This document shows, in pieces, positions 71-30,198 of a stretch of 61,035 nucleotides of DNA. The translations under genes were made by a program, and so were the position numbers. This stretch comes from a virus: IMG/VR virus record IMGVR_UViG_3300017729_000002, positions 1 to 61,035 of that record; one strand, given 5' to 3'. Position 1 is the stretch's first letter; every line of letters starts with the position of its first letter. Under the pieces are notes generated by a model, which did not search any database, was not told the DNA's origin, and saw only the letters and a list, made by a program, of their open reading frames with translations.

Positions 71-100
71 ACCCCGTGATACCGTATCACGGCACGGGGT
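71..100 (+). repeat. Palindromic element copy 1 (core 76-90)
   Basis: The core GTGATACCGTATCAC is an inverted repeat of 7-nt arms around one C, extended here to 9-nt arms (CC...GG, 74-92). A second, competing stem ACCCCGTG (71-78) with CACGGGGT (93-100) encloses it. It lies between the stop at 58 and the gene starting at 164. There is no U-tract, so a standard intrinsic terminator is not obvious. Three more copies follow the next three genes. Confidence 0.85.
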
Positions 101-163
101 GTAGCCATGTGAGATCTGTCACACTGACAAGTCCACTACAAAAAAAAACAAAACATATTAATT

Positions 164-1066
164 ATGAAAACCAACGCTACAAATAACGAAGCCATCATTA
201 CTGACCTTAACTCAGTAGTCCTTGCCAACCTAACTACCCGACGTGGTAACACCAGCACCCAGTGCAAGGTGACTGCCGATGACGTGGCTTACAAAGCAGG
301 GGCAGAGCGCAAGCTACTGAACGTGTCGTTCCGACACCTCAACTCAGAGGAGATCAAGACCGCTAGGTCTATCATCGTGAAGCTGACCAAGGACATCAGC
401 AAGGTGACACTACCCTGCCCGTCTATCCAAGGTGCAAGGTATGTCAAAGCCAAGGACATGGATGACGTGCAACGCATGGTAGACGAGGCGGAAGCCGAGC
501 TTAATGATGCCAAGCAAGAGATCACCAGACGATGGCACTCGATCCTGACCTCAGCTAAGGCATCAGCTAGTCAGCTCGCTCGCATCAATGACATTGACTG
601 GCCCGATGCCGAAGGCTTTGTCGAGACACTAGGCATCGAGCTCGAGTGGCTGGCATCACCCGCCCCTATCCAAGACACCGTGCTCGAGACTATCAGTGAC
701 GAGGTAGCATCCCGAGCCCGTGCATCACAAGCGGCTGACAAGATGTTCCTCAAGGCACACGCCGCCCCCGTCCGCGAGCTGGTCGTGGCACTAGCCAAAG
801 CGGCTGAAGCTACCACCGCGTCAACGCAAAAGGGTAAGCGTCTTCGACAGGCTAACTTCGATAACATCTCCAAGGCTATCGACAATGTATCGACATACAA
901 CTGGCTCGACCTACCCGAGCTGTCTGACCTAGTGCATACCATCAAGTCATCAGTCGGCACAGTAAACGGTCCGAGCCTGTCACGTGATGAGCGCACCAAG
1001 GTTGCCAGTAAACTGGAGGATGCACAAGCTGTTGCACTCGACACCCTCAACGACCTCGGCATCTGA
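164..1066 (+). CDS. Unknown helical protein, first gene of the MoxR/VWA module
   Basis: A 300-residue soluble protein, rich in Ala, Glu, Lys and Ser, with predicted long helices around residues 100-125 and 185-235. It has no signal peptide or membrane segment. I recognise no catalytic motif. Phage and plasmid MoxR-VWA pairs often carry a third, poorly conserved helical partner (DUF3150-type proteins are one example). The position directly before the AAA+ gene makes that role likely, but this is inferred from context. The start ATG follows an A-rich leader without a Shine-Dalgarno sequence. The gene is separated from its neighbours on both sides by the conserved palindrome. Confidence 0.6.
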   Translation: MKTNATNNEAIITDLNSVVLANLTTRRGNTSTQCKVTADDVAYKAGAERKLLNVSFRHLNSEEIKTARSIIVKLTKDISKVTLPCPSIQGARYVKAKDMDDVQRMVDEAEAELNDAKQEITRRWHSILTSAKASASQLARINDIDWPDAEGFVETLGIELEWLASPAPIQDTVLETISDEVASRARASQAADKMFLKAHAAPVRELVVALAKAAEATTASTQKGKRLRQANFDNISKAIDNVSTYNWLDLPELSDLVHTIKSSVGTVNGPSLSRDERTKVASKLEDAQAVALDTLNDLGI

Positions 1067-1080
1067 ACCCCGATTCCTGA

Positions 1081-1122
1081 ACCCTGCTTGTGCCTACCGT
1101 GATACCGTATCACAGGCAGGGT
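1081..1122 (+). repeat. Palindromic element copy 2 (core 1099-1113)
   Basis: The same 15-nt core sits 33 nt after the stop at 1066. The flanks differ from copy 1 but still pair: TGCCT (1091-1095) with AGGCA (1114-1118), or alternatively CCCTGC (1082-1087) with GCAGGG (1116-1121). Pairing is preserved although the bases changed, which supports an RNA hairpin. Confidence 0.85.
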
Positions 1123-1132
1123 CAGAATTATC

Positions 1133-1161
1133 TTGACTAATTATTCACAATCAATTATTCT
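1133..1161 (+). promoter_or_regulatory. Sigma70-like promoter of the MoxR gene
   Basis: TTGACT (1133-1138), a 17-nt spacer and TATTCT (1156-1161) lie just downstream of palindrome copy 2. The predicted start near 1168 leaves a leader of about 22 nt before the ATG at 1190. The ATPase gene could therefore be transcribed independently of the gene before it. Confidence 0.55.
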
Positions 1162-1189
1162 CTAAACCACAACACTAAATACCACTACT

Positions 1190-2317
1190 ATGTCTATTAC
1201 AGCACAACACGAATCGACCTCCCCTATCGTAACCTCTAGCCAGATCGTCGGGCTCGCACAGATTGCATTTGCATCTGGCTCCATGTATCACATCGAGGGT
1301 CAAGGCGGTGGAGGTAAGACCTCCATCCTACAGCACGACCTAGCCACAGCCATGGGCATACCACCCGAGCGTGTCTTCAAGGTCAACTGCTCTGGCTACC
1401 CACCATCAGAGCTGGTCGGCTATGGTATCCCAGACAGCGAGACCCACGATATGTGGTTCGCCCGCCCAGAGCAATGGCCTCATGCCCTCACCGTAGGCAA
1501 GGACGAATGCCTACTCATCCTCGACGAGTTCACTCAGTGGGCACCCGAGGCACAGTCCTTATGTCGCTCACTCTTTGACCCAGTCAATGGCGTCCCGATG
1601 ATCGGCACCCATGAGCTCGGCAGTAATGTCCACATCTGTATCACATCCAACCGTGCGATAGATGGCTCGAGATCCCTGCGAGTTGATGCACCCACATCCA
1701 ACAGGTGCATGACTAACACCCTAGCCCCCGACCTCGATGACTGCCTAGCATACTACGCGAACCAAGGTCTAGCTACCTCACCGTTGTTTGCATTCCTCAA
1801 GTTTACCCAAGGTCTCAATGAGACTGACCACTTCAACCCTGCTATCGGCAAGGGCTGGGATGGCGGACCTCATGCCACCCCCCGTAGCTGGGAGTTTGCA
1901 CTCCGCTATACCAAGGGTCTCAAGCTAGACGCATTCAATCACTCCACCTTGGAGACTGCCATCAAGGGATGGGTCGGCATGAAGGCAGGGTCAGCCGCTT
2001 GTGCTTTCATCCATACCATCAGTGCATACATCCCACGCCTCAAACAGATCAGAGCAGGGCAAGAGTCTATGCCCAACGGTGACCCGTCGGCACAATACTC
2101 CATCGCCTACGCCGCCCTCCGCACAGCTAAGAAAGAGGTCGAGGATCTCGGGGGCATCGCGTCCGACGCGGTGGTCAGTGGCAACGTGGACTGGCTAGTA
2201 GATCGCATCATCATACCTGCCGAGGGTGAGCTAAGAGGCTGGGCATACCGAACTGCCCTAGCCATTGGCATACCCCTCGAGAAGCATGACCGCCGTGCAC
2301 AGATGCAGAGCCTGTAA
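1190..2317 (+). CDS. MoxR/CobS-like AAA+ ATPase
   Basis: A 375-residue AAA+ ATPase. Walker A is GQGGGGKT at residues 37-44. Walker B is LLILDE at 108-113, followed by the F-x-x-W-x-P-E and LFD-P-V-N-G loop typical of MoxR/CobS-type proteins. ITSN near residue 154 is a sensor 1-like segment. Members of this family act as ring ATPases that remodel protein or metal-cofactor complexes together with a VWA-domain partner, which is encoded next. The gene has its own sigma70-like promoter and is bounded by palindrome copies 2 and 3. No Shine-Dalgarno sequence precedes the ATG. The AAA+ assignment is firm; the phage substrate is unknown. Confidence 0.88.
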   Translation: MSITAQHESTSPIVTSSQIVGLAQIAFASGSMYHIEGQGGGGKTSILQHDLATAMGIPPERVFKVNCSGYPPSELVGYGIPDSETHDMWFARPEQWPHALTVGKDECLLILDEFTQWAPEAQSLCRSLFDPVNGVPMIGTHELGSNVHICITSNRAIDGSRSLRVDAPTSNRCMTNTLAPDLDDCLAYYANQGLATSPLFAFLKFTQGLNETDHFNPAIGKGWDGGPHATPRSWEFALRYTKGLKLDAFNHSTLETAIKGWVGMKAGSAACAFIHTISAYIPRLKQIRAGQESMPNGDPSAQYSIAYAALRTAKKEVEDLGGIASDAVVSGNVDWLVDRIIIPAEGELRGWAYRTALAIGIPLEKHDRRAQMQSL

Positions 2318-2327
2318 CCCGAACCCT

Positions 2328-2356
2328 GCTCCCTGTGATACCGTATCACAGGGAGC
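2328..2356 (+). repeat. Palindromic element copy 3 (core 2335-2349)
   Basis: The longest copy: GCTCCCTGTGATAC (2328-2341), a single C, then its exact 14-nt reverse complement (2343-2356). It sits between the MoxR stop (2317) and the VWA gene start (2379), leaving only 22 nt to the ATG. It could influence translation of the VWA gene as well as stabilise the MoxR 3' end. Confidence 0.9.
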
Positions 2357-2378
2357 CAACACTAAACTACTACAACCG

Positions 2379-3818
2379 ATGAACGCTACCACAATTCATA
2401 ACGACCTTATCCCACAGGGCAATGGCAAAGCCAACGCCAGCTACGATAGCAATGGCAATGGCATCGTAGCCAAAGCAATGCGCCGAGTCCGCGACCACCA
2501 TGGCATGGCTTATAACAAACTCTTATCACTACGCTGGGAAGCCAGCAACATGACACCGTACGGTGCGACAGATGGCAGACGCCTAGTCCTCAACCCGCAG
2601 GGTATCGACAAGCTATGTCAGACATCCAACCCAGTAGGGTACATGGCTTTCCTCCTAGTTCATGAGGCACTGCACGCACTGCTCAATCATGGCACCAGAC
2701 TCAGCAAGTTCACTGACCACCAGCAAGCTAACATCGCGGCTGACTATGTCATCAATGCCATGATCAAGCGTGCCAACCTAGCTTGTATGCGGGGCGGAGC
2801 TAAGCGACCACCATTCCCCATGATAGCTGGGTGTCTTATCGACGAAGCCCTGTCTGCAGATAAGGAAGTCGAGCAGTTGTATGGTGAGCTCATGTCCCAG
2901 ACCCCCGAGCCCGAGCCCGAGCCCGAGCCCGAGGGTGATGACCAAGGTGATGACCAAGGTGATGACCAAGGTGATGACCAAGGTGATGACCAAGGTGATG
3001 ACCAAGGTGACAGCCAAGGTGACAGCCAAGGTGACAGCCAAGGTCAGGGAACCAGCGGTACACGCACCGACGATGAGATCCTCGGCGATGACTTTGTCGG
3101 GAGCATCAATGGCGAAGACACCTTCGAGCCTGAGCTCGACGAGGGCGAGAGCCCCCGAGATGTGGCCGAAGAGATCGACCGATGCAATGACCGCATCGCT
3201 ATGAATGACCAGATCAATGAGGTCGCAGGTCTCGGCGGTAGCAGTGGACATCTAGAACTTGCTGATCACCAGAATAGAGGTGAGCTCGACACCCCATGGG
3301 AGGACATCATCCGAGACTGGATGACCTACTCCACATATGCTGGCTGGGTCAGCCCATTCAATCAACAGGTCTTCCAAGCCACAGGCATGGTCTCCGCTGG
3401 TCGTGGTGGTAAGTCGATCAACAACCTAGTGTTTATAGTAGACACCTCGGGGTCTATGTGTGGTAGTGCGCTACGTGATATCATGTCTAAGATCCAAGTG
3501 GTACTCGACGAGTTACAACCCCGTAGCACAGCCATCATACCATGTGACCACACTGTGCACACGGTGCATGACGTAGAGCTCGGGGGCTTTGTGCCCCGCA
3601 CCCTAGAGGGTGGGGGCTGGACACTCTTCCAGCCAGCCCTCGACTATGCTGAATCACACTACCCTAACTCAGATGGGATAGTATTTCTTACCGATGGGTA
3701 CGCTTCAGATCTACATAAGATCGAAGAGCCCACTGCCCCAATCCTATGGTTGACCTACGGTCTGACCGAGGACCAATATCCTTTTGGCGACGCCATCAAA
3801 GTTCGTTTGTATGACTAG
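2379..3818 (+). CDS. Metallopeptidase-VWA fusion protein, MoxR partner
   Basis: 479 residues from the ATG at 2379; an in-frame upstream start would run through palindrome copy 3 and is rejected. The N-terminal part has a zincin motif HEALH at residues 95-99, as in the DUF2201-type putative metallopeptidase domain. The C-terminal part is a VWA domain with an intact MIDAS: D355-T-S357-G-S359 and D439 in LTDGYA. Between them lies an acidic linker at 2907-3041, made of (Pro-Glu)n, six GDDQ units and three GDSQ units encoded by near-perfect 12-nt DNA repeats. VWA proteins of this type pair with MoxR ATPases. The combination suggests a metal-dependent protein-remodelling or proteolytic complex. The substrate is unknown. 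Confidence 0.85.
   Translation: MNATTIHNDLIPQGNGKANASYDSNGNGIVAKAMRRVRDHHGMAYNKLLSLRWEASNMTPYGATDGRRLVLNPQGIDKLCQTSNPVGYMAFLLVHEALHALLNHGTRLSKFTDHQQANIAADYVINAMIKRANLACMRGGAKRPPFPMIAGCLIDEALSADKEVEQLYGELMSQTPEPEPEPEPEGDDQGDDQGDDQGDDQGDDQGDDQGDSQGDSQGDSQGQGTSGTRTDDEILGDDFVGSINGEDTFEPELDEGESPRDVAEEIDRCNDRIAMNDQINEVAGLGGSSGHLELADHQNRGELDTPWEDIIRDWMTYSTYAGWVSPFNQQVFQATGMVSAGRGGKSINNLVFIVDTSGSMCGSALRDIMSKIQVVLDELQPRSTAIIPCDHTVHTVHDVELGGFVPRTLEGGGWTLFQPALDYAESHYPNSDGIVFLTDGYASDLHKIEEPTAPILWLTYGLTEDQYPFGDAIKVRLYD
2934..3041 (+). repeat. 12-nt tandem repeat inside the VWA gene
   Basis: Nine in-frame 12-nt units: six GGTGATGACCAA followed by three GGTGACAGCCAA, encoding GDDQ x6 and GDSQ x3. Identical units imply recent slippage or unequal recombination. 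Copy number changes would alter the linker length between the peptidase and VWA domains without breaking the frame. Confidence 0.95.
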
Positions 3819-3834
3819 TAGTAAGGCCTTGTCT

Positions 3835-3857
3835 CCACGTGATACCGTATCACGTGG
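3835..3857 (+). repeat. Palindromic element copy 4 (core 3839-3853)
   Basis: CCACGTGATAC (3835-3845), one C, then its exact reverse complement (3847-3857). It lies 17 nt after the VWA stop. This is the last copy I found; none precedes the smaller genes downstream, so the element marks the three-gene module. Confidence 0.9.
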
Positions 3858-3927
3858 GGGCAGGGTAACTACCTAACCTCAATCACAATAACCCCACCAA
3901 TTAACACCAACAAAATAAAACAAAACA

Positions 3928-4143
3928 ATGACACTAGCATTATTCATTATCATTACACTTGCCACATTCGTAGTATTATTCGCATACTCCTTGTCCACGA
4001 GCAAGCCACAGCAGACCCACCCCGCACCACGTCAACCCAAGTGGATCGAGTCTTGCCAAGTAGCACTACTAATTACCACAGGTGTGGGCTTCGGTCTTAC
4101 CTGCCTGACCTTGGTAGTCGCAGTAATTATATCAATCTCATAA
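3928..4143 (+). CDS. Small membrane protein with two predicted TM helices
   Basis: 71 residues. Hydrophobic segments at about residues 2-22 and 47-69 flank a polar Pro- and Gln-rich loop, so both ends probably face the same side of the inner membrane. The leader is A-rich and lacks a Shine-Dalgarno sequence. It is the first gene after the MoxR/VWA module, and may act with it or open the block of small early genes. No family recognised. Confidence 0.55.
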   Translation: MTLALFIIITLATFVVLFAYSLSTSKPQQTHPAPRQPKWIESCQVALLITTGVGFGLTCLTLVVAVIISIS

Positions 4144-4156
4144 CCTAACTAAACAT

Positions 4157-4393
4157 ATGACAACGACACAAGTAACACTACCCATCCACATGATTGACAT
4201 CGTGCGGTATAAGAACTGGACTGGCCTCACTGTAGCTGAACTCTTCCACGCTGGGAGACTAGGATCCAATGGATCAGACAAGAAGAACATCGAACGCTTC
4301 GCCCTCCACATGCACCAACCCCGAGACCTAGACGAGCACCATGCTCTCATGGCCTTGGCTAACGATGCATACGAATACCTACTTAACGAATAA
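4157..4393 (+). CDS. Small hypothetical protein
   Basis: 78 residues, mixed charge, with several His and Met residues. No membrane segment or recognised motif. It starts 13 nt after the preceding gene and ends 4 nt before the next, consistent with one early operon. Function unknown. Confidence 0.5.
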   Translation: MTTTQVTLPIHMIDIVRYKNWTGLTVAELFHAGRLGSNGSDKKNIERFALHMHQPRDLDEHHALMALANDAYEYLLNE

Positions 4394-4397
4394 GACA

Positions 4398-4556
4398 ATG
4401 CAAGTAACCATAACAATAGATGCAACGAGTGAGCGCCAGCTTACTGACTCTCTAATCAAACTAGCCACCAACATATCTGATACCGATACTGGTTCATATG
4501 AACTGATGGATGGGTCATACCAAATCGAAGAAGCCAACGTAGAAATGCACCCATAA
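4398..4556 (+). CDS. Small acidic protein, duplicate copy A
   Basis: 52 residues starting MQVTITIDATSE. A longer upstream frame exists, but the ATG at 4398 matches the start of the second copy at 4770 and the usual leader. The predicted fold is mostly beta at the N-terminus, then an acidic segment DTDTGSYELMDGSYQ. The DNA is roughly 90% identical to 4770-4937, so the pair arose by a recent duplication. Function unknown. Confidence 0.65.
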   Translation: MQVTITIDATSERQLTDSLIKLATNISDTDTGSYELMDGSYQIEEANVEMHP

Positions 4557-4579
4557 ACAAATAGAAAACAAAACACATC

Positions 4580-4804
4580 ATGAAAAAACTAGATAAAGAA
4601 GAACTGCTCCGAGAAAACCGCGATCTTCGCATCAAGGTTAAGCAGATGGAGCAGGAGATTCTCGACCAAATATCCCACTCAGGAGTTTGGATTGAGAAGC
4701 TGAAAGCAAAGTCGCAGCAGGTTATCGACTTGCTCAACAAGTATGAACCCGACCCATACGAGTCGAACAATGAAAGTAACGATAACAATAGACGCAACGA
4801 GTGA
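4580..4804 (+). CDS. Small coiled-coil protein with an overprinted C-terminus
   Basis: 74 residues. Residues 1-55 form a charged heptad-like coiled coil (KKLDKEELLRENRDLRIK and on). The last residues, about NESNDNNRRNE, are read from the 5' end of the duplicated gene at 4770 in another frame. The C-terminus therefore appears to have been replaced when copy B was inserted, and the two genes overlap by 35 nt. Function unknown. Confidence 0.6.
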   Translation: MKKLDKEELLRENRDLRIKVKQMEQEILDQISHSGVWIEKLKAKSQQVIDLLNKYEPDPYESNNESNDNNRRNE

Positions 4805-4937
4805 GCAACAACTTGCTGACTCCCTAATCAAACTAGCCACCAACATATCTGATACCGATACTGGGTCATATGAACTGATGGATGGGTCATACCAGATCGA
4901 AGAAGCTAACGTACAAATACAACCACAATCTAATTAA
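4770..4937 (+). CDS. Small acidic protein, duplicate copy B
   Basis: 55 residues, starting MKVTITIDATSE and nearly identical to copy A (4398-4556) through EEANV. Only the last few residues differ. Its first 35 nt overlap the coiled-coil gene. The conserved reading frame and mainly synonymous or conservative changes between copies indicate that both are real proteins. Confidence 0.65.
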   Translation: MKVTITIDATSEQQLADSLIKLATNISDTDTGSYELMDGSYQIEEANVQIQPQSN

Positions 4938-4948
4938 CAACTAAGACA

Positions 4949-5323
4949 ATGAAACAACTAAGCAAACAAGAGATGGTCGATGCAATGACCACCAACATAG
5001 ACGCCACTTACAACCTGCTCAACACACTGGTTGACCAGACCACCCCCGAAAGCATCCGTGCGCTGTATGATAACTACATGAACGATACGGAAGAAGAAGA
5101 GGAAATGTATAGTGGATACCTCCCAACTAATCTGGAAGTACAGCTTGTCAGTCTAGGAGGTGAGTGGGCAGTCGATGTCCGAGAGCGAGCCAAGCATGAA
5201 GATGATGCTGACCCTTGTCTGGACGGGTATCTCTTTCACTCTTATAAGGAAGCCCGCGCCCTATATGAGAAAGCAGTAGCCTATCACGAGCACCACCCAG
5301 TCACAACCATGGGAGAACTATAA
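4949..5323 (+). CDS. Hypothetical acidic protein
   Basis: 124 residues, acidic, with an E-rich run near residue 50 (DTEEEEEMYSGY). The C-terminal half has alternating aromatic and charged residues (LFHSYKEARALYEKA). No known motif. It is followed after 2 nt by the next gene. Function unknown. Confidence 0.55.
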   Translation: MKQLSKQEMVDAMTTNIDATYNLLNTLVDQTTPESIRALYDNYMNDTEEEEEMYSGYLPTNLEVQLVSLGGEWAVDVRERAKHEDDADPCLDGYLFHSYKEARALYEKAVAYHEHHPVTTMGEL

Positions 5324-5325
5324 CC

Positions 5326-5514
5326 ATGATCTACTTACTTGCACCCTGTATCCTGATTCCCTTATCCTGTTACACGATCTATTACCTATGGGTCACGTAT
5401 CATAATGATAAGTATCTATCCAAGCTGAGGCGTAAAGCTGATGCACAACTCAAGGACGACACACACCGCACCTTCCTTCTAACCATACGAAACAAAACCA
5501 ACACCCAAAAATAA
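5326..5514 (+). CDS. Small single-pass membrane protein
   Basis: 62 residues with one hydrophobic segment at about residues 2-24, followed by a basic cytoplasmic-type tail (SKLRRKADAQ). This is the layout of a small inner-membrane phage protein. Tightly packed between its neighbours (2-nt gaps on both sides). Function unknown. Confidence 0.55.
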   Translation: MIYLLAPCILIPLSCYTIYYLWVTYHNDKYLSKLRRKADAQLKDDTHRTFLLTIRNKTNTQK

Positions 5515-5516
5515 AC

Positions 5517-5810
5517 ATGAAACTAGAAACACAAAAGATAAATGTAATCCGCAAGTTTGAATCCTCAGCTTACCAACGACTCAGCGTCAAGCAAGTGCTC
5601 GCGCTGTTCTACCTAGAGGATGATGACATCACAACCACCGCCCTTGCCAAGAGGGTGGGTGTAACAAGTGCCGCCGCTACTGGCATGATCGACCGCATGG
5701 TGGACCGAGGCCTAGTAGTGAGGAACCGCAACCGCTCCGACCGCAGGGTCATCACCGTTCAGATCACTGACCAAGGCCGAGGCGTAGTAGAAAGGATCGT
5801 TAACTCATGA
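5517..5810 (+). CDS. MarR-like winged-helix regulator
   Basis: 97 residues. The helix-turn-helix TALAKRVGVTSAAATGMIDRM at about residues 40-60 is followed by a wing with RNRSDRRVITVQITDQG, the signature of the MarR family. It is shorter than cellular MarR proteins (about 140), lacking most of the dimerisation helices, so it may dimerise differently. A role in switching early transcription is plausible. It overlaps the next gene by 4 nt (ATGA). Confidence 0.8.
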   Translation: MKLETQKINVIRKFESSAYQRLSVKQVLALFYLEDDDITTTALAKRVGVTSAAATGMIDRMVDRGLVVRNRNRSDRRVITVQITDQGRGVVERIVNS

Positions 5811-6151
5811 CACCAAAACCGCGAACACCATTCGCTAAATCCTTGGGGGCACCCACCCCCAAGGATTATGACCGACTAGTTCAACGAGCTAGTGAATTGT
5901 CTGGTATATCAATGACGGATTTGCTATCCTCAAACCGCACCCAGCGGGTGAGTCAATGGAGACAATCAATCTTCTACGTGCTCCGCCACATGGGTGCTAC
6001 CTTCCACGAGATAGGATCATACTTCAACAGGACACACGGCACCATCATCCATGGGTGCAATGCCCTTGAGAGGAATGCAAACAATAAGACTGTAAGAAAC
6101 ATCATCATCGAGTTAACTAAGCCGACCAATGGAGATACCAACGACGAGTAA
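5807..6151 (+). CDS. DnaA domain IV-like DNA-binding protein
   Basis: 114 residues. Residues 45-90 resemble the C-terminal DNA-binding domain of bacterial DnaA: a basic entry helix (RVSQWRQSIFYVLRHM), then EIGSYFNRTHGTIIHGCNALE, matching the DnaA helix-turn-helix and the DHTTV/HAC signature loop. No AAA+ ATPase domain is present. A phage protein of this kind could bind an origin or DnaA boxes, or compete with host DnaA; that is inference. A 12-bp stem-loop lies within its early codons (5838-5867). It overlaps both neighbours by a few bases. Confidence 0.75.
   Translation: MTPKPRTPFAKSLGAPTPKDYDRLVQRASELSGISMTDLLSSNRTQRVSQWRQSIFYVLRHMGATFHEIGSYFNRTHGTIIHGCNALERNANNKTVRNIIIELTKPTNGDTNDE
5838..5867 (+). 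other. Intragenic 12-bp hairpin in the DnaA-like gene
   Basis: AATCCTTGGGGG (5838-5849), a 6-nt loop, then the exact reverse complement (5856-5867). It spans codons 11-20 of the DnaA-like gene. A perfect GC-rich stem inside a coding region could slow translation, bind a protein or mark an origin. Confidence 0.7.
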
Positions 6152-6512
6152 TGTAAAAGCACTGGAAGCATTTCATGATGTCTTTCTGCAACATGTTCGC
6201 CCCGTAGCGGAGCATGATCGAATTACTCTGAAGGGTGACGAAGCTAAGAAGTATGAGGAACTACGTGCTAAGTTTATACCTGCATCTATTGTTATGGATG
6301 TCATAAGCTACATGAAGTATCACCTCAGTGAGTTCGCCGCCGATGAAGTATTGAAGATGGGATGTGAGGGAGACACGCAAGCGATGATAGAAAGGTGCGA
6401 CGAGCTCGACCCCTACTTCAAAGCCACAAGGTCACTCGCCCTCGCCGTCCATGTCTTTGCCACCGAGGCCAGTGAGACATTCACAACTGCAGATGAAACC
6501 AACGAAGAATAG
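6129..6512 (+). CDS. Hypothetical helical protein
   Basis: 127 residues, acidic and mostly helical, no membrane segment or known motif. It overlaps the DnaA-like gene by 23 nt and is followed after 2 nt by a zinc-ribbon gene. Function unknown. Confidence 0.55.
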   Translation: MEIPTTSNVKALEAFHDVFLQHVRPVAEHDRITLKGDEAKKYEELRAKFIPASIVMDVISYMKYHLSEFAADEVLKMGCEGDTQAMIERCDELDPYFKATRSLALAVHVFATEASETFTTADETNEE

Positions 6513-6514
6513 TT

Positions 6515-6703
6515 ATGCCAAACTCACACCACCCATTCGAGAAAGTAACTGGCGGGAAAGGCGATAGAGATATCCGCACTGACCCAGCCAAGTATCGCAA
6601 CAGTTTATTCTGGAAACGATCAGCGTGCTGTGATGCACATGTCGAGTCGGACCAAGGTAAGCTAGTGTGTAAAGCATGCGGTAAGATCACCACGACAAGA
6701 TAA
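6515..6703 (+). CDS. Small zinc-ribbon-like protein
   Basis: 62 residues. The C-terminal half has CC-x-A-H (around residues 42-46) and C-K-A-C (55-58), a plausible four-ligand zinc ribbon; the N-terminus is basic and polar. Such small phage zinc fingers often bind host transcription or replication proteins. That function is not shown here. Confidence 0.55.
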   Translation: MPNSHHPFEKVTGGKGDRDIRTDPAKYRNSLFWKRSACCDAHVESDQGKLVCKACGKITTTR

Positions 6704-6820
6704 ACAATCTGGTATTGTAGCGGAGTTTGTTTAGTCTCTGGTTACCACATCGCCATCCCTGTAACTACATAAAAGCAGGGAACATTTTCTAAATTAAATA
6801 TACTAAACCAAACAAACACT
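6704..6820 (+). promoter_or_regulatory. Intergenic region with a possible promoter
   Basis: 117 nt without a gene. TATACT at 6799-6804 lies 16 nt before the ATG at 6821 and would fit a -10 element, but no good -35 is found 16-18 nt upstream. A weak CCCTG/CAGGG stem precedes it. The region probably starts transcription of the following gene. Confidence 0.3.
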
Positions 6821-7291
6821 ATGAACAAAGGAACAATACAAACTATAGCTCAGGCTATTGATAACTCATCTATTGATATCTTCCCTGAGGATGTCACAGT
6901 AGTTGACAATGATGACGTGGAACTAACTATCCAGTATGATAAGAAAGATCCTACTAAGCTGGTGATTAATGAATGGCACAGTCAATGGTATTCAGACGAT
7001 CGCAGTCGAAGGGAAGAGGAAGATCGAGTTGATGATAGTAAATCAATCTATCATTCTCTTGATGGCATCTTGTGTAAAACCTTTGAGCAAGTTACTGAAT
7101 GGGCTGAGCAAGGAAAAAAGTGGGAAGACTTGCAAAGCATGCACACACAAATACTACATACAGTAGAGAAACATTATCAGAAAGCAACGGAGAGGTTCTT
7201 TGTTTATTGTGAGCGATGTGGTAACGACAGTCAATGCCTAGACAACTCACTATGCGACTATTGCCGCTATGTAGCGGAGAAGGACGTTTAA
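6821..7291 (+). CDS. Hypothetical protein with C-terminal cysteine cluster
   Basis: 156 residues, acidic N-terminal two thirds, then CERCGNDSQCLDNSLCDYC near residues 129-147, which could bind one zinc ion. It is the last gene of the left plus-strand block and converges on the 4,390-residue gene. A strong bidirectional hairpin lies between them. Function unknown. Confidence 0.55.
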   Translation: MNKGTIQTIAQAIDNSSIDIFPEDVTVVDNDDVELTIQYDKKDPTKLVINEWHSQWYSDDRSRREEEDRVDDSKSIYHSLDGILCKTFEQVTEWAEQGKKWEDLQSMHTQILHTVEKHYQKATERFFVYCERCGNDSQCLDNSLCDYCRYVAEKDV

Positions 7292-7392: not shown

Positions 7393-10300
7393 TTACTGAG
7401 TCTTCTTTCTTTTGATTACTGAACCCTCGGACAGGAGGTACTTCTTGGGATTAGCATTAATCCATTTGTAAGCTTCCTTAATCCTAGCAAGTTTCATCTG
7501 CTTCTCTTCTTCCGTCTTGGCAGTAGCGATCATCCTCTGAGTAAAGTCAGGTGTCAGGTTGATGCCATCCATGACCCCGTTCATCAGGTTCTTAGTTCTA
7601 CGTTTTGATAACACCTCACTAGCCGTCTGGTAAATGTGCTTGTCAGACATCCCATACTTAGAAGCACCTCGCATCATTCTGATCGCGTGGTTAGACACAG
7701 CCTGTCTGTCCTCATACTCTTCCTCAAATATCTCAACAATGCTTTGTTCAGATATAGGCTTGAGGGATCGGAGTATGTTCTTTCGGGATTTAATATTAGC
7801 AAACTCTCGACGGCTCTCATATAGGTAGTTCGTAAGCTGACGCTCAGGATCAATGGTGTGCACCTTGAACGGTCTGACCGCGCCATATAATATATTCTGA
7901 ACAGAGTTCTCTGGGTCAGTATATACCTCGTCACTCGTAGCCGTCTGATATGCTTTGATCGCACGCTTCAAAATGTCAGGGCTATACGCCTCGTTAAACA
8001 AGAATGTCAATCTCTTGATAGCCGCCTCCCCTGTCGTGTCCGAAACATTCTCGACGATAGGTTTGTTGTTCGTCGGGTCCCTGTTCTCTATGACTGCAGT
8101 CAATGCACCCGCCGCGATCTGTTCATCTAGATACTGATCAACAAACAGACCATTGACTAAGGCCGCGCCCGCTTCACCAAACTCACCTCTGCCCATCTTC
8201 TCAAACGCCCTAACTACAGGGTCTGCGAGTAGAGCATATGGGTTGATGAATGTCAGGTCAATAGTCTTATACTTGTCACCACCTCCGAAGAACTTACTCC
8301 ACTTAGGTGGGATAGATAAGAATGAGTTGCCCCTTAGGTATTCGGGAGCAGTCTCACGTTGGAAGTCCTGCATGTCATCATCCTCGGTACCAGCTATACC
8401 TGCAAGTATAGAAGCCACTAGGCCCATGCTACCAACACCGACCGCGAGCATACCAACCATACGCTTCAACCCGCGAGCCTTGATAACACTACTATCACTC
8501 CTCATCTCCTGATTTGCGAGCTTGAATGTGTTGAACACCACCCTCGGAACCTCAGCCTTGAATCGGATAAAGGGTGCTACTAAAGCACCGATGCCATGTC
8601 TCGCTATGTCTTTAACAATAGGAGGAGCTTGGCTAGATGACTGTGCTGTCATCAAAACTTTATCCCGTGCCATTTGTTTGAGGTCCGAGTCAGAGTAGTC
8701 AGCGAATGAGCCACCTTCCTTCTCGGCCTTAGCCTTAGCTTTACGTAATACTTTAAGCTCGTTCTCGTAGTAGGCTATCTTATAGAAGCCGTCCACTGCA
8801 CCAGCCATCCGAGTGGCTACTTTATAAACCTTACCAAACGTAGCCTCCGTACCCTTAGCCGCAGCCTGAATTAATTTATTCTGCTCACTGATAACATCAG
8901 ACAAGTTACGGGTACCATCCAACATGTCCTTCATCAGCGTGGATCTTAGCTCATTATCAATAACACCCAGTGCGGACAGCTCCGTTAAGTAGGCGTCCAT
9001 CCTGTTCGGATCTTTGAGTTCGTCCCATACATACTTGGTCTTAGCAATCATGGATGCCCCGTTAACAAACCCTTGGGATGGCCCGAAGAACACGATGTTT
9101 GATAACATGTTTCGGATATAGAAACCTATCGAGCCTAATGTCTTAGTAGCCATAGACAAACCAGATGCCTGTCTTAGTGTGGATGTCATGAACCCAACTA
9201 CTTTTTCTGAATCGGTGTCGGTCTCGGTATTGATGTCAGACTTGAACAGTTCGACTAGCCCCTCGCGCACATGCTTTGGTGCATACATCCCACGGAGTGG
9301 GTTGTTAGCGGATGTCTTCTTGGGTGTGACCGCGTCCCAGTCTTCGTAGGCTTCGGGGTCTTTCTTCCGAGCGGCCTTCAGTTGCTTAGCCGTCATTAGG
9401 AATCCTTCTTTCTGACCCATCTTCTGGATGTTTGAGAACATAGCCTGATTCGCCGCCATGGTAGACACGGTTAGGAAGGTACGCACTAGGTTGTCTACTG
9501 TAGCTTCAGTACCAACCTCACCAAGCAACGCCCGTAGTCGGGGGTCTAGGTCTTTCTTCTCTTTGAGATTATCTTCAAGGATCTTAGCATCATCATTACT
9601 GACAACGTCATTCTTACCTGCTCTCTTATACTGGGCTAAGAACTTATCCACTTCGAGCTGACCCATGGTCTTCAGACTATCGGGGCTCTGCTCTTGGAAC
9701 TCTGCCTCTACAATTAGATCAGCTTCCTGAGGGTTGAATACCAGACCAGCGTTCTTAGCTTGCTCACGCAACTCGTCTCTTCTCTTTAACTTGAGATCCT
9801 CAATGAAATACTTACCAGCCTCTTCCCTTATGCCCGCATACTCAGGTGAATTACTAGCGTGCTCATGGAATCCAGTCTCAGTAAACATACGATACTGAGT
9901 GGTCAGGTAGATACCTTTCTGCACATCGAAGTGTGCTTTCATACCCTCGTCCATACCATAGAGATCCTTCATCTTCTCTTGGATAGGTTCGATCAACTCA
10001 GACCTAATATCCCGTATGGTCTGTGCCAACTCAGGAGATACCTCCTCAAGTTCAGCCAGAGCCTGAGTTTGCTCAGCTATAATTTGCTTGGCGATAACTT
10101 GTTTCTCAGCTAATAGCTTACCAAACTTATTATCAGCCGCTATCTGCTCGTCTAGTTTCCTCTCCTTTGTAGACTCATAAGTTGTCTGGGCAATGGTGTC
10201 TAGCTCTGCTTGATACTCGTCCTCGATCTCTTTGCGTCGTTCACGTGGGACAATCGCACTACGACCAATGGCCTTGTTGAGACGAGCAGTGTCCGAGCTA

Positions 10301-13300
10301 TCTAGCTGGTCACCATATGCTTCCTTCATGAGGCGATCAAACTTAGTCTTGAAACTGTTCGCTGTTTTCTCAGCCGCGTTCCTAAAGAACTGACGATTCT
10401 GAATCATACGCTCTATCCTAGGATCTAGGGCGCCCTTTAAGATTCTGCCAATTAAACTAGTCGGGGCATCATACCCACCTGTGGCATAGAACGGTAGCTC
10501 CAGCTGGTCAATGAACCCTGAGTAGTCCATCTTGTCTGGGGTAAATCCTTCGGACGGAGCGATAGCTGACTGTAATCCCAAGCTCCTACGGAACCTGACA
10601 TCCTCAGCTGTTTGCCCATATATCTTGTTACGGTAGCGGTTAATGATACCTTGGTCACTTGGCGATGTTATCTCCCAAGTCTCATTCCAATTATCATCTT
10701 GGATGATGTTGGCAAAAGCCTCGGTAGCACTATCAAAACCAAGATATTCCTGCCGCTTTAGTGCATTGCGAACTGACTGTGGCATCCTTTCCAAGTCCCC
10801 CCGCACTGCACCAGACATCAGAGCCTCCCCCATGAACTGCTCATCGTATTGATTAGGATTTCCAATAGCGGATTGGAGTCCACTTGTTCTAGGTGCGTCT
10901 TCAGTCTCCATGACCCATTCGGGGAGGAGGCCAATCTTCTGATCTGCAAAGATAGTTTCTTCACCCGTGGCCGTTTGATTAAACTCACCATAAGGACCAT
11001 AGTTCACCCAGCTGTTTTGTGCTCTGGTTTCTGTAGTTAGTGCTCTTCTCGCCGCCTTGGAATACATTGTAGAATGAGACCTCCATGCATTCTCTTCACC
11101 ACGTGCTCTAAATCCTACACCATTTCGGATGTGCCCGAAGTAATCATGTACTGCTCTAAATATATCATTTGCTAGTACTTCTCTGCCACCCCATGTATAT
11201 GGACTAACTTCTAGGAGTGGGTTATCTGAAGGGTCAAATCCACTATCAGAACCAAACCCGTCTTTAGTTCCAAAAACATACATGTGGTTGTTCTCAACCA
11301 CATCTAGTATTGCATTTCGAGGGTTCTTATATGGGTCTTTACCCGAGGGTGCAAACTCTAACTTAACTCCCGCCTCAATCATTGCATCATACTGAGCATA
11401 CGTCTCAGCGATTAATGCTTGATATGCCTCGGCTACTTCAGGGTCCGATGGGTTGTGTTGTAGTTTATCAAATGCTCTTGCAATCCTCGCCGCCCTCTTT
11501 TCATTGACTGGGGCATAGTATGATATAGGAGTTTCCCCAATACCTGTCTGTTGCTGGTATTTTTCAGCAACATCTTGCGCGGGTTTGTACCCAGTAAATA
11601 TGGTAGGAGTCCCATCGACCCTTACTGTGACTGGGAGCCCTTTGAGGTGACCCCCCGCGTCCCCGCCGTACGAATCTTTTGCACCTCCAACCACGAGATC
11701 TTCTCTTCGTTGTCTTGGGAGAGGGGCTCCGATTGCTGATTGAAGACTTCGTCCATCAGTATATCTGCGGGCGTCCTCTCTAGTTCCTTCGCGCTCACCC
11801 TCGACGCGTTCAGAAACCTCTCCGCGTCCTCTGGATTCGATGTAAGACTGGACACCTGTTCCGAGCTTAGCTTGTTTGTATTCTTTTTCATGTGTTCTTA
11901 ATGTTTGTTTTTGTGAAGTTGATAATACCTCGAGATCTAGGGTCTGGTCAAATAAATATAATCTTTCTTTTTGTAAGAACTTAATGATTGCCCGACCCTC
12001 AACAAATGTACGAGGTGGCCTATCCTTCGGATAAAAAACATCAGCCGCGTCATCAAAGCTAGACTTGAACGCTCCTGTTTCACCAGTCCACCCATTCTCA
12101 TCCCATGTTTGTTTCTCACCAAACCACACCACCGCCTGAAGATCGTCGGGAGACATGTTTAGTTTCTGGGCTGCTTCTCGGAACACTATCTGACCTAACG
12201 CGAAGTCTTGGTTTTTAACTCCCGTCTCTGCTTTGGGGATAATTCTCCACCTCTTTGTATTACCCGCGTATAAAATTCGGCGTAGAGTCCGTGCCGCCCA
12301 CACATCAATGGTGGCTTCAAGAGACTCCCCACGTAAGTTCATTGCAAATTGTGGTGTCTTAGGTGCTTTTGTATTTTCCCGCCACACTCCAGCAAGCACC
12401 CGCAGAGATGGCATACTATTTTGGCCAAACTTCTTTGTTGCATCATACGACTGGGTCAAGGTCATCCCTGACCGATCCACCCATCGCTCTACAATATCCT
12501 GTGCTTTGACAGTCTTGGCTTGTTTTGCGGTAATCACCTGACGCTTGACGGCTTCGGACACGAGGGTTCCCGCATTGATAATATCATACAGTTCTAGGTA
12601 CTGCTTTATGTTTGAGTCAAACTCACCTGATTTATACCTCTGATAAATTTCAGCGGCATATATAAAGTTTTGTTCGACCCCTGTGTTAGCAGACGTAGCT
12701 CCGAGTAAGTTAGTAAATATTACAAGATCTTCTTCTGTGAATATCTCTTTTAATCTGGATTGCATCCGAGTGTACCACCCCAGTCCCGCCGCTACATCGG
12801 GACGTTCCATCATTTTATTAGTCTCCTCAACGAGACGTTCAACCGCAGCATCGACAGCACCACTATCAATTAGTTTTTGAATGTCTTTACGCCCCCTTGG
12901 ACCGACTTCGTAGTGGAGGGAGTCATAGTCTAAAGGTTGTGAATAAGGCTGGTCTTTTTTAGGGGCGGTCTTAAAGAAGGGAGCGCCTATTAAGTTATAT
13001 TGTTGATTCTTAGGCTCTCCTTTGGCGTTAAGAGGAGTTACAGTAATCTCTTCTCCATACTCACTTGGCTTAGCATACCCATAGTTCTTAGCTATACCAG
13101 CTTGTAACCCGTCGGATCGAGTAAGGAACTCTTCTGGATCAGTAGTCAAACCTTCCTCAAGTTTGTCCGCGAGGACAGCCAAGCCTTGGTCTGGTCGTGT
13201 TGGGTCAAATGCAATAGATGATTCCTGAGTCCTGTATCCTGCTTTGATGGAACGTAGTTCGTGGATCAGGCTATTGACTGCCGAGTCCATGAATCGGTTA

Positions 13301-16300
13301 CCCTCACCGTTGTTAAGCTCCTTCTGGAACTTACGCATTTCAGCCATTCGTCGGAAGTATCCACTAACATAGCGGAACATGATCTTCATTAGCGATGGGT
13401 TGGTGCGGTAGAACGCCCAGTCTTGTTCTGTTGTAAAGCCACTAGTCAGAACTTCCATACGCATACGTAGGTGCTCTTCGGTTAGCCTAGCCTTCAGGTC
13501 CAGTAAGTCAGCCTGACCTTGTTCATCGAGATCGGTCGCACGAATCAGGGCAAGGGCTTCAGCGGCTTGCTCAGGTCGGTCAGCATAGTATGACTCAACG
13601 ATCTCTTCATACATGTAGTCAGGCAGGGTGTCAGCTAACTCGTCTATCTCCTCTTGTGTAAGTGTGTTAAAGGAAGCAACGTGACTTAGCTCATGTGACA
13701 TGACCTTTGCTACGATTAGTTTCGATGATGCTAATCCGAGGTCCTGAGTGAGGTTCATAATGAACGCGGGGTTGACTACAACCACACCGTCGCGGAACTC
13801 AGCCGCAGCATTGATGGTCCGATCAATTTCCAGCGGCACCTCTGGGGGGACTAACTCCCTAGCCACGCGGAGGAGAGCCTCTGCTTTTTGTTGAGCCTCA
13901 CTAATCTGAGCTCGGTTGGTTACGCCCTCCGTGTCAGTATCAACTTCCGTGAGTTCTGACACCAGCTCGTTTAAGTCTTCTGCCGCTTTTTGTGCTATTA
14001 GTTCATCCTCAGTAAGCTCTACGTCTTGCTGTGCCTCAGCCAATGATGGATCAGAGTATACAGCGGGTACACCAGTAGCTTTAAATGCGTCCGAAGTCGC
14101 CTTCATGTTTGCAGTAACCTCTGCGACTACTCGCTTGGCACGGGTCTTAGACCTAGGATCACTCACTGATACTGTTGACTGAGCTAAGTCAATCACGTCC
14201 GTCAGCGCATCAGCATACTTAGATGCCTCCTCAGTTGTCACGCCTTTACCGAAGAACTTAAATATAGAATCCATGATCTTACGGAAGAAACCACGACCAC
14301 CTTTATCAGCACCTAAACCTTTAATCTCTGCTTGGAGTTCTGGGCTTAGCATTATACCAGCCACAAACTCGTCCATGTTAACTAAGGAGTCCATCAGAGC
14401 GCTGTTGGATCGGTAACCAGCGGTACTAGCCGCCTCAGATATCTCTTGTCTTAGTGCATCGAGCCGCGTAACCGCATCCAGTTGGGCTGGGGTCAGTGTA
14501 GAACGTGGCTGGCTAAGGACTTTGGTCAGGGTAGCGTGTACATATTCCTCTAGGAGTACGTTGGATAGTCCGCGACCGTTGTGCCCATCTAAGTTCAGGA
14601 CGACTTCTAGACTTCCATCTGTCATGGTAGTCTGCATCCCAGCGAATGGCAGGTTCGCGCTAATGATTGTGAACTTCACATCACGTACCAATTCCACGTT
14701 CTCTAGGATCAGATTTGCAACTAACTTATGTGCAGTTGTCCCTGTCTCAGCAATCTTTTGAAGTGCACTTACGACACTATTTGAATCCCCAGACACCAAG
14801 CCTAGTCTTTCAGCTTCAGCTTGGTTAGCGGCCCTAGCAATCTTACGTTGTGACTCAGCAATGCGGGATCGGGACTGGTTCTTTTTGACGACGTTCCTTG
14901 CGTTGGTGTTGTGGTCTTTGTTCTGCCGTGGCGTGCCTGTACGTACGACATTGAACCCTTCAGTAATTACCCTGTATAGGTCAGGGTTGCTGGACTCGAG
15001 ACTTCCTAAAATTGTCTGTAGATTTTTACTACCTACGTTTTGATCAAGAGCTCGTTGGGTCGTCTCAGCGATCTCCTTGGTCTCCATCCTCGATATTACA
15101 TTAGCGGCATCTTGGGAACCTCCCGCTAATTCTGTAGCCAGATCTACGAGTATGGCTCTAGCTTCATCACTCTCATATAAAGATTCAGCTACGTCGCTAT
15201 CTTGATCAATAGCATTATTAGCCTCATCACGGCTTACGGGATCTGTGCTAACAGCTGGTATGGATGTGTCCGTATCCTCGTTAAACTGCGATCTCTCCGC
15301 ATTGTTCTGCGTGTCTCTAACCCTCTTAGCTTTCTGCTGCTTCCTGAAGTTATCGCTAGATAGCTGAGCAATGAAACTCATAGGAGGCATCGTATTCTCC
15401 TTTAACAAGGGGTGGTTAACTATTTCTTGTAAAACAAAGTTGGTAGTTCTTTTTGGGAAGCTACTACCAGCAGTCATAGATGACACTTGTTTCAGTTGTT
15501 CGTTTAACTTAGCACCCGTGAGCTCCCTATACCTAGTCTGCTCTACGAAAGCTTGAATTAACCTGCTTCGGTTAGTTGCAGTGTCTTGCCTCAGTTGTAA
15601 ATTCCCTGTTGGCTTTCCCTCTTGGTCTACCTCAATCGTCCCGTCCTTATTTAATTTAGCAGTTAATAGTTTACCGACAGGACCGTCGAGAATGTTCTTT
15701 CTAGCAACGTATGCATTAGCGACTAGCATAGTCTCAACTACAAAACGCTGTGATGCAGCATCAAAGAAATCACCTTCGAGCGGGGCTACACCTTTACGGT
15801 TCATTAGGTTCTTCAACGTACCACGAGAAGAACTTTTTTCAGGATCCGAACTCATCGCGTTACTGATGAACGTAGTTACGTTGTTGATGAAATCCCCAAC
15901 CGTAAATACTTCACCATCTTGTACTTTGGATTTTGTTCCATCAGCTTGAGGAGCTTCGTCTATTTCTAATGGGGTTCCATAAAACGACTGATCAAATAAG
16001 CCAGCCCCCGCTGACTTCTTTAGTAGTATGTTGTAGTTGGCTTGTGTGGACGTTACTTTATCTGGATCTGATCCATCCTGAAGCATACCCTCGTTCTCAT
16101 TATTTACAGACAGCACACTAAGGACTCGCCTTGTGTCTGGGTCTGCGATGATAGAAGGGTTTAGTTCCACGCCCTTAGGGACGATTACAGTCTTACCTGC
16201 TTTGAGGTATTCCGCTGTAAGTACAGGGTCATTGTCAAACACGCCACGACCACTAGAGTCTAGGAATCCTTTGACAGGAGCTCCCTTTGAGCTAGACATC

Positions 16301-19300
16301 TTTTTGGTGTGCGGGTTGTAATGCACCTGCTTACGACCCTCAAATACTTTACCACCCTCTGGCTCAGTGAGTGGTGTGATGGGCCACGTGTCATAAATCT
16401 GACGAGCCACCTCAGTAGATACTCTGGGGTAGTAACCTTTAGGTTTCTTGGAATACTCGAAGCCTGACTTTGTTTTGGCAGTTACGCGTGACGGGAAGCC
16501 AGAGGCCACTAGTGTGTCAAATGATACTTGGTCTTCCTCAGTATTGAGAAACTCGAGTATCTCTGTTACTGGAGCTTCAGCAGTACCTGCTTCCATGGGG
16601 ATGTCAATGTCCTCCTCGGACTCAACGACACGACCCTCCTTGTCTAGATTGATCAGCATCTGTTCATTGACCTCTTCTAAGTCTACCCCCTGTTCAGCCG
16701 CTTCTTCAATCTCTTCGGGGGTGACTGGAGCCAGCGCATCAATATCAGCTCCACGGACATTAGTTTCGTCCCCTAGGTTCAGCTCTTGTTGAACTGCTTG
16801 TGACTCCTCTTCGGTAAGGTTGTCTAGTATGGGAGCCGATTTTACGATTACCTTTTCTTCAACCTGTTGCCGCTCAAATAACTGTAGCTGAACTTCTTCA
16901 AGCGTTCTTTCAACCGACTCTGGGTCTACATTACTGTCCAAATTTTCTAGGGTTGCTCCCACTAGCTCAGACATAATTGGCATCCCGACCCAGTCACTAG
17001 TCGCAGGATCTCTGACACCGATAACATAGTTCTCTAAGTCCAGCATGTAGTCTGCATCGGGACCCTTCAGGAGGTTCTCCTCAGCCTCTTCAGGTGTTAA
17101 GCGTCCCGCAAGAGCACCTTCGCCCTCTTGGTTGAGCCAGTCTGCCATGCGCTGACGTGTACCCACTTCATCTAATGTTACGTCATTAGACTCAGGGAAA
17201 CCTACAATGTTTCCATCCTCATCTTTTGTTAGTGTTCCATCCACAACAGCCTCGGCTATTTGTAATGAGCGAAACAACCCCGATGTCTCCGCAGGATCGA
17301 CCTCTTCAAACAATTTGTATTGATCATCTGTCATCTCCTCTTCGACGAGATAATCATAACGCGCTTGTTGCTCCTCATTTAATTGAGCTGAGTCAGACCC
17401 TTCGGGCGTAAACCATGAGTTCAGGGGGAGCGTAGTCAGTTTATCTGTATCGTGTGATAACTTCTGACTTTGAGATCTAGGATCTTGTGGCGCGGGGGTA
17501 GTAGTGTCAGCTTGAGGGGCATCAGGATCTAGCTTAAGGGTATCCTCGATCTCTTTCACCCTTTGAAGTTGATCTGGTTTGAAGAAAGTTTGCTCTCGTG
17601 CCAACTCTTTAATACCGTTCAGTTCCTCTCGAAGTTCATCTTCTCGAGCTTTTTGTGCAGCTGGACCCGCTAAAGGTTTTGGAACAAATGGGGCTGGTTC
17701 GCTAGGTGCCCCCTCCTCTGCCGACGCTGCTGCTTCAGTAACCTCAGGTGTAGCACTAGGATCTAACTCTTGTGTCAGCTTAGCCCTAGCCTCATCAGCT
17801 CTTTTACCTCGAGCAGGACCTGTCAATATATCACGGACCACTTGTCCAGTAATTGGTGCGGCCGCTGTATCTAGTTCTGCGACGACATTGTCTACAAAAT
17901 CGAGCTCTAACTTCGCTTGATCTCTACGTGACTGTTCACGTAAACCAGATCTACTTGCTAACTTTTGGTATGCCCCCATACCACTACCAATGATGCCCCC
18001 AGTCAGACCTGCTCGGTAAGCTGATTCTAATCGAGCCATTCCATCAGTGCTCTGGTCAGTGTAGTAGTCAGTGATGTAAGAGTTAACGAACTCATCTAAA
18101 CCCTCCTCAAGGGCTTCCGAAGTAAACCCATCAAATGCTTCGCTGACAATATTCTTCTGACCCGCAAACTTCCCAGCGTTCTTAGCCATGTCTTTGTGGA
18201 TTTTGCCCACAGCATTCGCGAAGATCTTCACTGAGTCTTCCGACCCAAGTTTGACCCTAGACCCTATGTTGCCTAGCCGCTCCACGACACCTAACGCTTC
18301 CCGCTTGGTCATTCCTTTAATGAATGCATCCTCGATACCACCCTTACCAATGGATCTGAAGGCCTTCATAATACCAATGGTGGAGAATCCAGATACTATC
18401 CCAGATCCGAAAGCCCTATCATGCTTCTCTTCGTGAGACATGTCAGGATTCATCTGTGTGAGTGTGTCATATGTCGCAGCATAGTTAGCACCCGCAGACC
18501 TAGTAAATGCGGGGGTATTGATTGCGGCGTCTTGCGTCCACTTATTGGAAGCTATCTTAGCAAACGAATCAATAGCTCCCATGGCACCTTTCTTGATCTC
18601 ATCCGTAGCTGGCTCTAGGATGTAACCATCCTTAACTAATCTCTTCAACGCTACCTCCGAGGACTCCTCTACTCCATCCACAACCAAACGCTTAAAGGGT
18701 GAGTTCAAGGTCATACTCTTAACAATACCTTTAGTCAAAGACTTAGTGGTCAGTTTGGCTCCCTGTTTAGCTGCGATCAGCATTGCACCACCAGCGCCAG
18801 TAGTTGCAGTTAGTGCAGCGGTCGCTGCCATGTCAGCAAAGACAGGTCCAATAGTCTCCGCCACATCTTGCCCTATACCAAATTCAACACCAAACAATCT
18901 TGCTCGCTCACGGCGTTGGGCATTGCGTTGGTTAGCTTCGATAAGTTGTTCTCTGGCCCACTCATTACCAGCCATTGCCATTGGTGCTGTCACCATCGAA
19001 ACAAATCCCTGTCCCCAAGCAGCTCCTACACCCTTAGCGCGTGCTTCAAATTGACTGTAGTTGTCTGGATCAGAGAGAAAATTCTCCAATATAACGTGGT
19101 CCTTAGTGCCAGCGGCCCTACCTTCTTGCAATGTACCTAACCATTCCTCAGCATCAGCGCCTTTGCTAAGCAGCTCATTGGCTGAGTCAAAGTTTTGAGC
19201 AGACATCGCCTCACGGTTGGCTCTAAGCTGAGCCTTATCCGCTTCAGTAAGATCAGTGTTTGCATTAATAGCCTCTTCAAACTTAGCGACGTTGGAGACA

Positions 19301-30100: not shown

Positions 30101-30124
30101 TCCCTAGTTTAATATACATGACCC

Positions 30125-30158: not shown

Positions 30159-30198
30159 AAATTTATGCCAAATTACAATCACGGCACACACCAAAAAT

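Follow-up and report, generated by a model that had tools for sequence, protein, structure and literature searches.

A phage and plasmid gene trio encoding a midasin-related ATPase, a DUF3150-like protein and a metallopeptidase-VWA protein, and the hairpins at early-gene junctions of a podovirus-like phage

Described MoxR-VWA systems and the locus studied here

Phage gene pairs encoding a MoxR-type ATPase and a peptidase-VWA protein have already been published. For the pair found in jumbo phages, Iyer et al. (2021) proposed a role in virion assembly and not in takeover (PMC7824862). The locus described here resembles two known pairs, the MoxR/metallopeptidase-vWA pair of group 2.2 jumbo phages (PMC7824862) and, in the Schitoviridae, the N4 gp24/gp25-like pair. 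It shares with them the ATPase family, the proximity of the two genes and a partner protein with a peptidase domain at the N-terminus and a VWA domain at the C-terminus, but it occurs in a different phage group and comprises a third component as well as hairpins at the gene junctions. The N4 gp24/gp25-like pair recurs across a large phage family, and no settled function was found for it. A DUF3150 partner of these pairs was not mentioned in the literature found, and a literature search for DUF3150 itself returned no paper, a result that leaves room for such papers to exist. No DUF3150-like gene was seen in the stretches examined of CRP-7, the Rhizobium phage, Pollock and XC38.

Bacterial MoxR-vWA ternary conflict systems, described as VMAP, iSTAND, FtsH and beta-propeller types, have a common layout of a MoxR AAA+ ATPase, a vWA protein and one conserved third protein (PMC7159879). 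In contrast to these systems, the third protein of the present locus is DUF3150-like, its peptidase domain is located at the N-terminus and retains the active-site residues, no effector domain was seen, and its origin lies in phages and plasmids. The same three families are also encoded contiguously in an operon of Burkholderiales plasmids (ATP-binding, DUF3150 and VWA-like (DUF2201) proteins), the relation of which to our locus is at the profile level only; this operon differs by its order (ATPase-DUF3150-VWA), by a T-run hairpin after the ATPase gene and by lacking the core palindrome.

The window, meaning the whole stretch of DNA that was analysed, is a linear 61 kb IMG/VR contig from a podovirus-like phage with genes for a terminase, a DNA polymerase, an exonuclease, a primase and an endolysin. 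Its left edge carries three plus-strand genes (164-1066, 1190-2317 and 2379-3818), hereafter the trio. Window genes from 164 to 7291 are on the plus strand and the late structural genes are mostly on the minus strand; the trio is encoded on the early strand and not on the one that carries most structural genes. The initial annotation had proposed that the trio is a transferable cassette, set off by dedicated palindromes and provided with its own post-transcriptional control.

Identity and active sites of the three proteins

All three reading frames of the trio are open (300, 375 and 479 aa). The second gene (1190-2317, plus strand) encodes an AAA+ ATPase of the MoxR/midasin clade, which belongs to phrog_1297 (N4 gp24-like; E = 1.3e-32) and whose profile has the midasin AAA modules as its best solved relatives (E = 6e-22 against the PDB). 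The third gene (2379-3818, plus strand, ATG start) encodes a metallopeptidase-VWA fusion of the DUF2201 type, with DUF2201_N and DUF2201 matches that both exceed the Pfam cut-off (PF13203, E = 1.8e-14; PF09967, E = 2.4e-14), an assignment to phrog_1314 (N4 gp25-like; E = 7.5e-54) and a VWA domain in C-terminal position. The intact Walker motifs, HExxH and MIDAS that had been read from the sequence at the outset were confirmed, the corresponding residues all being present and without variation among the aligned sequences. In the ATPase these are Walker A G40/G42/K43, Walker B D112/E113 and the sensor and arginine residues N154, R172 and R232; in the VWA protein they are H95/E96/H99 with H104 (HExxH) and D355/S357/S359, T415 and D439 (MIDAS). 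An acidic GDDQ repeat linker is encoded at about 2934-3045. Membership in the VMAP type of MoxR-vWA systems was considered and rejected, since Pfam scans showed neither a VMAP third component nor a C-terminal effector on the vWA protein, in which the VWA domain itself is C-terminal.

The metallopeptidase-VWA protein carries the label "HNH endonuclease" in phrog_1314 and in many RefSeq records of Schitoviridae (including H21, H23, H27 and H39). Because the only Pfam domains seen in the protein so labelled are DUF2201 and VWA, this label looks like a spreading misannotation.

The first gene (164-1066, plus strand) required more sensitive comparisons. Its 300-aa product gave no Pfam match and stayed below the gathering score of DUF3150 (PF11348), direct searches of named-phage and plasmid collections returned no homologue, and a fold search of the PDB with its AlphaFold model (pLDDT 71, pTM 0.50, moderate confidence) gave nothing significant. 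Among 11 homologues, six weakly matched Pfam DUF3150, with a best E-value of 1e-4 and with listed scores, including that of a plasmid protein, below 24.9 bits. Comparison by hhalign of the phage set with the plasmid DUF3150 set yielded a match of 98.3% (E = 2e-14, 231 columns), and the AlphaFold model matched a viral protein annotated as DUF3150 in BFVD (E = 2e-8). Similarity to DUF3150-annotated proteins was found at the level of both profile and fold, and on these comparisons the first trio gene encodes a DUF3150-like helical protein, the third component of the trio. A scan of bacterial genomes with the DUF3150-like alignment confirmed no relatives, the degenerate patterns used reaching near ones only.

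Recurrence of the trio in phages and on plasmids

A single-sequence search with the ATPase recovered no relatives, and related contigs were retrieved by means of the terminase. Three of these (G005, G007 and G017) contain all three trio genes. An alignment search with the DUF3150-like protein identified 12 viral loci, each with an adjacent VWA gene (12/12); the ATPase gene is also present in all 11 of those loci that are not cut off upstream, and the order in this set is ATPase-DUF3150-VWA. In distant marine relatives, a combined profile search further placed a DUF3150-like gene directly upstream of the ATPase gene, with E-values from 1e-9 (best) to 2e-4 (weakest). Their gene order is the same as in the window, so that the idea of a swap unique to the window was rejected. 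All three genes were also found in cyanophage Pra-JY27, and the ATPase/VWA pairs of XC38, CRP-7 and the Rhizobium phage are located near the DNA polymerase. Altogether, at least 15 virus loci as well as plasmids of Burkholderiales carry the trio, which recurs in two gene orders.

Five of the six plasmids inspected have contiguous ATPase, DUF3150 and VWA genes in that order, and the sixth, Simplicispira L188, has DUF3150 and VWA genes with no ATPase gene in the stretch seen. The hosts of the trio-bearing plasmids are Cupriavidus, Burkholderia, Paraburkholderia and Caballeronia; the plasmids are conjugative or mobilizable, and some copies lie beside transfer genes. Phage and plasmid ATPases matched in profile comparison at 99.6% (E = 2e-24). 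The joint search for the three proteins that had been suggested initially thus found them together in both types of element.

A close relative of the window, G001 (ca. 80% nucleotide identity), lacks the trio, the region from window position 1 to ca. 4143 being swapped for other early genes; for this reason the trio is regarded as accessory. As judged from these sequence comparisons, the trio is a true unit, both mobile and accessory, and in this respect the initial proposal of a transferable cassette was upheld.

The distribution of the trio bears on two readings of its function. The first extends the proposal made for jumbo phages, in which the ATPase and peptidase-VWA pair would be a chaperone of virion assembly that processes structural proteins (PMC7824862), and it has a precedent in the MoxR-VWA proteins of Acidianus two-tailed virus tail assembly, cited in the same study. 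Against it, the genes of the window and of its relatives sit with early and replication genes and not with structural ones, and the trio is found on plasmids, which make no virions; a virion-assembly role is considered improbable here. A second and somewhat less improbable reading regards the trio as a conflict system of mobile elements, directed against hosts or competitors and related to the bacterial MoxR-vWA ternary systems. The layout of MoxR, vWA and a third protein (PMC7159879), the occurrence on phages and conjugative plasmids and the accessory status within the phage group would all agree with it, but Pfam scans revealed none of the VMAP, iSTAND, FtsH or beta-propeller components, nor any effector at the C-terminus of the VWA protein, and PADLOC gave no match.

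Palindromes at the gene junctions of the window

The three intact genes are accompanied, as initially reported, by four palindromes with an identical core. This 15-nt core, GTGATACCGTATCAC, occurs exactly four times in the 61 kb (at 76, 1099, 2335 and 3839) and represents the only 12-mer family of the contig with at least four dispersed copies. Allowing up to three mismatches revealed no extra sites; shuffled sequences averaged 1.4 matches and never had as many as the eight observed (four places, both strands). Identity is confined to the core, and the flanking stems differ among all four copies. Every copy nevertheless extends to a longer stem, the flanks being variable in sequence yet complementary in all four, and shuffling of the flanks only weakened the folds (p = 0.001, 0.005, <0.001 and <0.001 for copies 1 to 4).

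On the plus strand, hairpin 1 (67-104, core 76-90) lies upstream of the DUF3150-like gene and hairpin 2 (1081-1122, core 1099-1113) between this gene and the ATPase gene. Hairpin 3 (2328-2356, core 2335-2349) has perfect 14-nt arms and begins 10 nt past the ATPase stop codon, and hairpin 4 (3827-3865, core 3839-3853) has 19-nt arms, with G-U wobble pairs on the sense strand, and begins 8 nt past the VWA stop codon. Copies 2 to 4 start ca. 8-18 nt downstream of a stop codon. The contig extends 71 nt to the left of palindrome 1. A reading frame that is already open at its left end has its stop codon at 57-59, just before hairpin 1; palindrome 1 may therefore also lie 3' of a gene, in a series that may run on beyond the contig edge.

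Hairpins between early genes are known from phage mRNAs, including the RNase III sites of T7 and the UUCG hairpins of T4. Those of the window are likewise placed just past the stop codon at successive early-gene junctions; in contrast to T7 and T4, the hairpin apex in the window group is fixed within one phage and differs between phages, and processing is here putative. Copy 4 folds at -32.0 kcal/mol in the sense orientation and at -17.7 kcal/mol in the antisense one, the sense G-U pairs becoming mismatches on the other strand. Such a strand bias is clear in one of the four copies, the other three folding equally well in antisense. Action at the RNA level is favoured, not proven, and the three unbiased copies are also compatible with a role as DNA. 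The post-transcriptional part of the initial proposal therefore remains plausible, given the folds after flank shuffling and the bias of copy 4, although the repeats are not dedicated to the trio (see below).

Two established classes of element were rejected. Stems are present, but the longest T-run in the 40 nt after each of the window hairpins is 1-2 nt and a terminator scan listed none of them, which argues against intrinsic terminators. Integron attC sites would be expected to have GTTRRRY and RYYYAAC boxes, and no GTTRRRY box was found near any copy. A search of Rfam returned no family.

A role of the palindromes as DNA, either as operators of a dimeric regulator such as the MarR-like protein encoded at 5517-5810 or as hairpin promoters of the type used by the N4 virion RNA polymerase, is rather unlikely. 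Several features would suit it: the odd-centred symmetric core is fixed in all copies, the 3-nt loop has a purine at its centre when read on the template strand, the palindromes lie 37-85 nt upstream of start codons, a sigma-70-like box follows copy 2 (1133-1161), and the palindromic element of G001 belongs to a conserved leader of ca. 70 nt. An operator, on the other hand, would not need variable flanks that stay complementary, and the MarR-like protein is conserved in G001, yet the palindromes of G001 differ. As for an N4-type promoter, the template contacts are -8G, -10G and a purine at -11; with the centre of the template core GTGATACGGTATCAC placed at -11, position -8 is a T and position -10 a C, so that the two contacted G residues are absent. 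No phage RNA polymerase was detected in the contig; PF00940 was silent, as it was in the control, and sequence is missing between the contig ends. The giant protein of the window showed no RNA polymerase motif, and no PDB match pointed to such an enzyme.

The MarR-like winged-helix regulator (5517-5810) is surrounded by a stretch that is ca. 90% identical in nucleotide sequence in G001.

Hairpins in related genomes

The initial expectation that the palindrome travels with the three genes was contradicted by the comparative data, in both of the ways named at the outset as refuting it: related phages have the genes without this palindrome, and palindromes occur on unrelated genes. The exact core was found in none of 19 related contigs checked, and a 13-nt version with two mismatches gave scattered matches in these contigs at about the level of a reversed control pattern. 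Among 2.9 million viral contigs, the exact core had 25 single-copy matches, which does not exceed chance as estimated from the collection size, and the extended palindrome had no match.

Relatives that carry the trio show different hairpins or none at its junctions. Six distant marine relatives have 8-16 nt between the first two trio genes and a common hairpin upstream of the trio, and in several relatives the DUF3150-VWA junction bears hairpins whose sequences are unrelated. All five complete plasmid copies have, in place of the core palindrome, a hairpin followed by a T-run at the ATPase-DUF3150 junction, from which it appears that the position of a hairpin can recur without sequence similarity. 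Conversely, palindromes are found on unrelated genes. About six junctions of G017, mostly of unrelated genes, bear a palindrome particular to it (TCAAGACNGTCTTGA-type), and L180 has seven such junction palindromes, one of them inside the trio. In G001, a different leader repeat of ca. 70 nt, of which the palindromic element forms part, is present in seven or eight copies on the replacement early genes. A third palindrome type occurs in G005 at other early genes, with none repeated at the trio, and in G007 many early genes are preceded by short hairpins. In the window itself, the DNA polymerase gene has in its leader a hairpin of the same placement but different sequence (30125-30158, plus strand), where G001 has a hairpin of yet another sequence.

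Because the trio occurs with other hairpins or with none, and because relatives place their own palindromes on unrelated genes, the hairpins are independent of the trio and are best read as a habit of early-gene junctions in this phage group, lineage-specific in sequence, and not as a cassette border. That the palindromes would be dedicated borders, i.e., recombination sites or mobile ends moving with the three genes, is very improbable. This idea drew on the presence of one and the same core around each trio gene and at no other site of the contig, and on the absence of the accessory trio from G001, but the same ends were not found in any other genome tested, the attC-type box is missing, and the start of the contig just before copy 1 makes the boundary partly an edge effect. 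An apparent cassette border can thus be the contig-edge view of a genome-wide regulatory habit.

Other early-gene motifs were observed in relatives. In L186, a TTGACA/TTTACA-N17-TACACT box lies in front of each trio gene (3302, 4565 and 5558), with 6 nt between its end and the ATG; such boxes would yield leaderless single-gene transcripts. In L178-L185, a second repeated leader motif, approximately GCGTAGCTTACCGCNTAGTTGAAGC, precedes many early genes (e.g., L180 4797, 5039, 5281 and 6708), occurs with or without the palindrome and could be a promoter.

Proposed function of the trio and of the hairpins

In midasin, the motion of the ATPase ring acts on the MIDAS domain that holds the client, and MoxR-VWA pairs are thought to work alike. 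On the basis of this mechanism and of the midasin-like character of the ATPase, we infer a remodelling complex for the trio. It is rather probable that the three proteins act as one remodelling machine and that the palindromes are a separate layer of early-gene RNA hairpins. The ring of the ATPase would pull a client that the VWA protein presents through its MIDAS/VWA domain. An adaptor or scaffold role would fall to the DUF3150-like helical protein, and the N-terminal zincin domain of the VWA protein would trim or cleave the client. The client is more likely to be a host or replication complex than a part of the virion, a preference based on the early-strand position opposite most structural genes and on carriage by plasmids. 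The hairpins, with a conserved apex and a lower stem that varies freely but is always complementary, would delimit or protect single-gene transcripts at early-gene junctions, by forming 3' ends, by RNase processing or by stabilisation, and would in this manner set the proportions in which the products are made.

More tentatively, the MoxR/DUF3150/peptidase-VWA combination may be a further class of MoxR-vWA ternary systems on podoviruses, cyanophages and conjugative plasmids; it would act on a host target shared by phage takeover and plasmid establishment, and its products would be balanced by junction hairpins that evolve fast in sequence and are stable in position. We hold this extension to be possible, if doubtful. 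The link of the peptidase-VWA protein to a DUF3150 partner and to conjugative plasmids moves the focus from virion assembly to a host process common to phages and plasmids, and the trio offers a defined three-protein set for testing.

Additional features of the window

Positions 4386-4572 and 4758-4944 form a 187-nt near-duplicate (87%) that includes a small gene (...ITIDATSERQLTDSLIKLATNISDTDTGSYELMDGSYQIEEANV...); the two copies are separated by a stretch with a further small gene. On the minus strand, a 4390-aa ORF (7393-20565) encodes the giant protein mentioned above, which has limited matches only (DUF7178, phrog_3170 and phrog_3842).

A/C-rich leaders precede the start codons of plus-strand genes (164-7291) and of minus-strand genes, and very few of them show a sequence resembling Shine-Dalgarno, which is a hint that the host may be independent of it. 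At 30118-30210, the first ATG of the DNA polymerase ORF precedes a long hairpin. Since the match to one relative begins with residue 28, and since this hairpin is followed by an A/C-rich leader that contains an ATG, the true start of the DNA polymerase is probably downstream of it.
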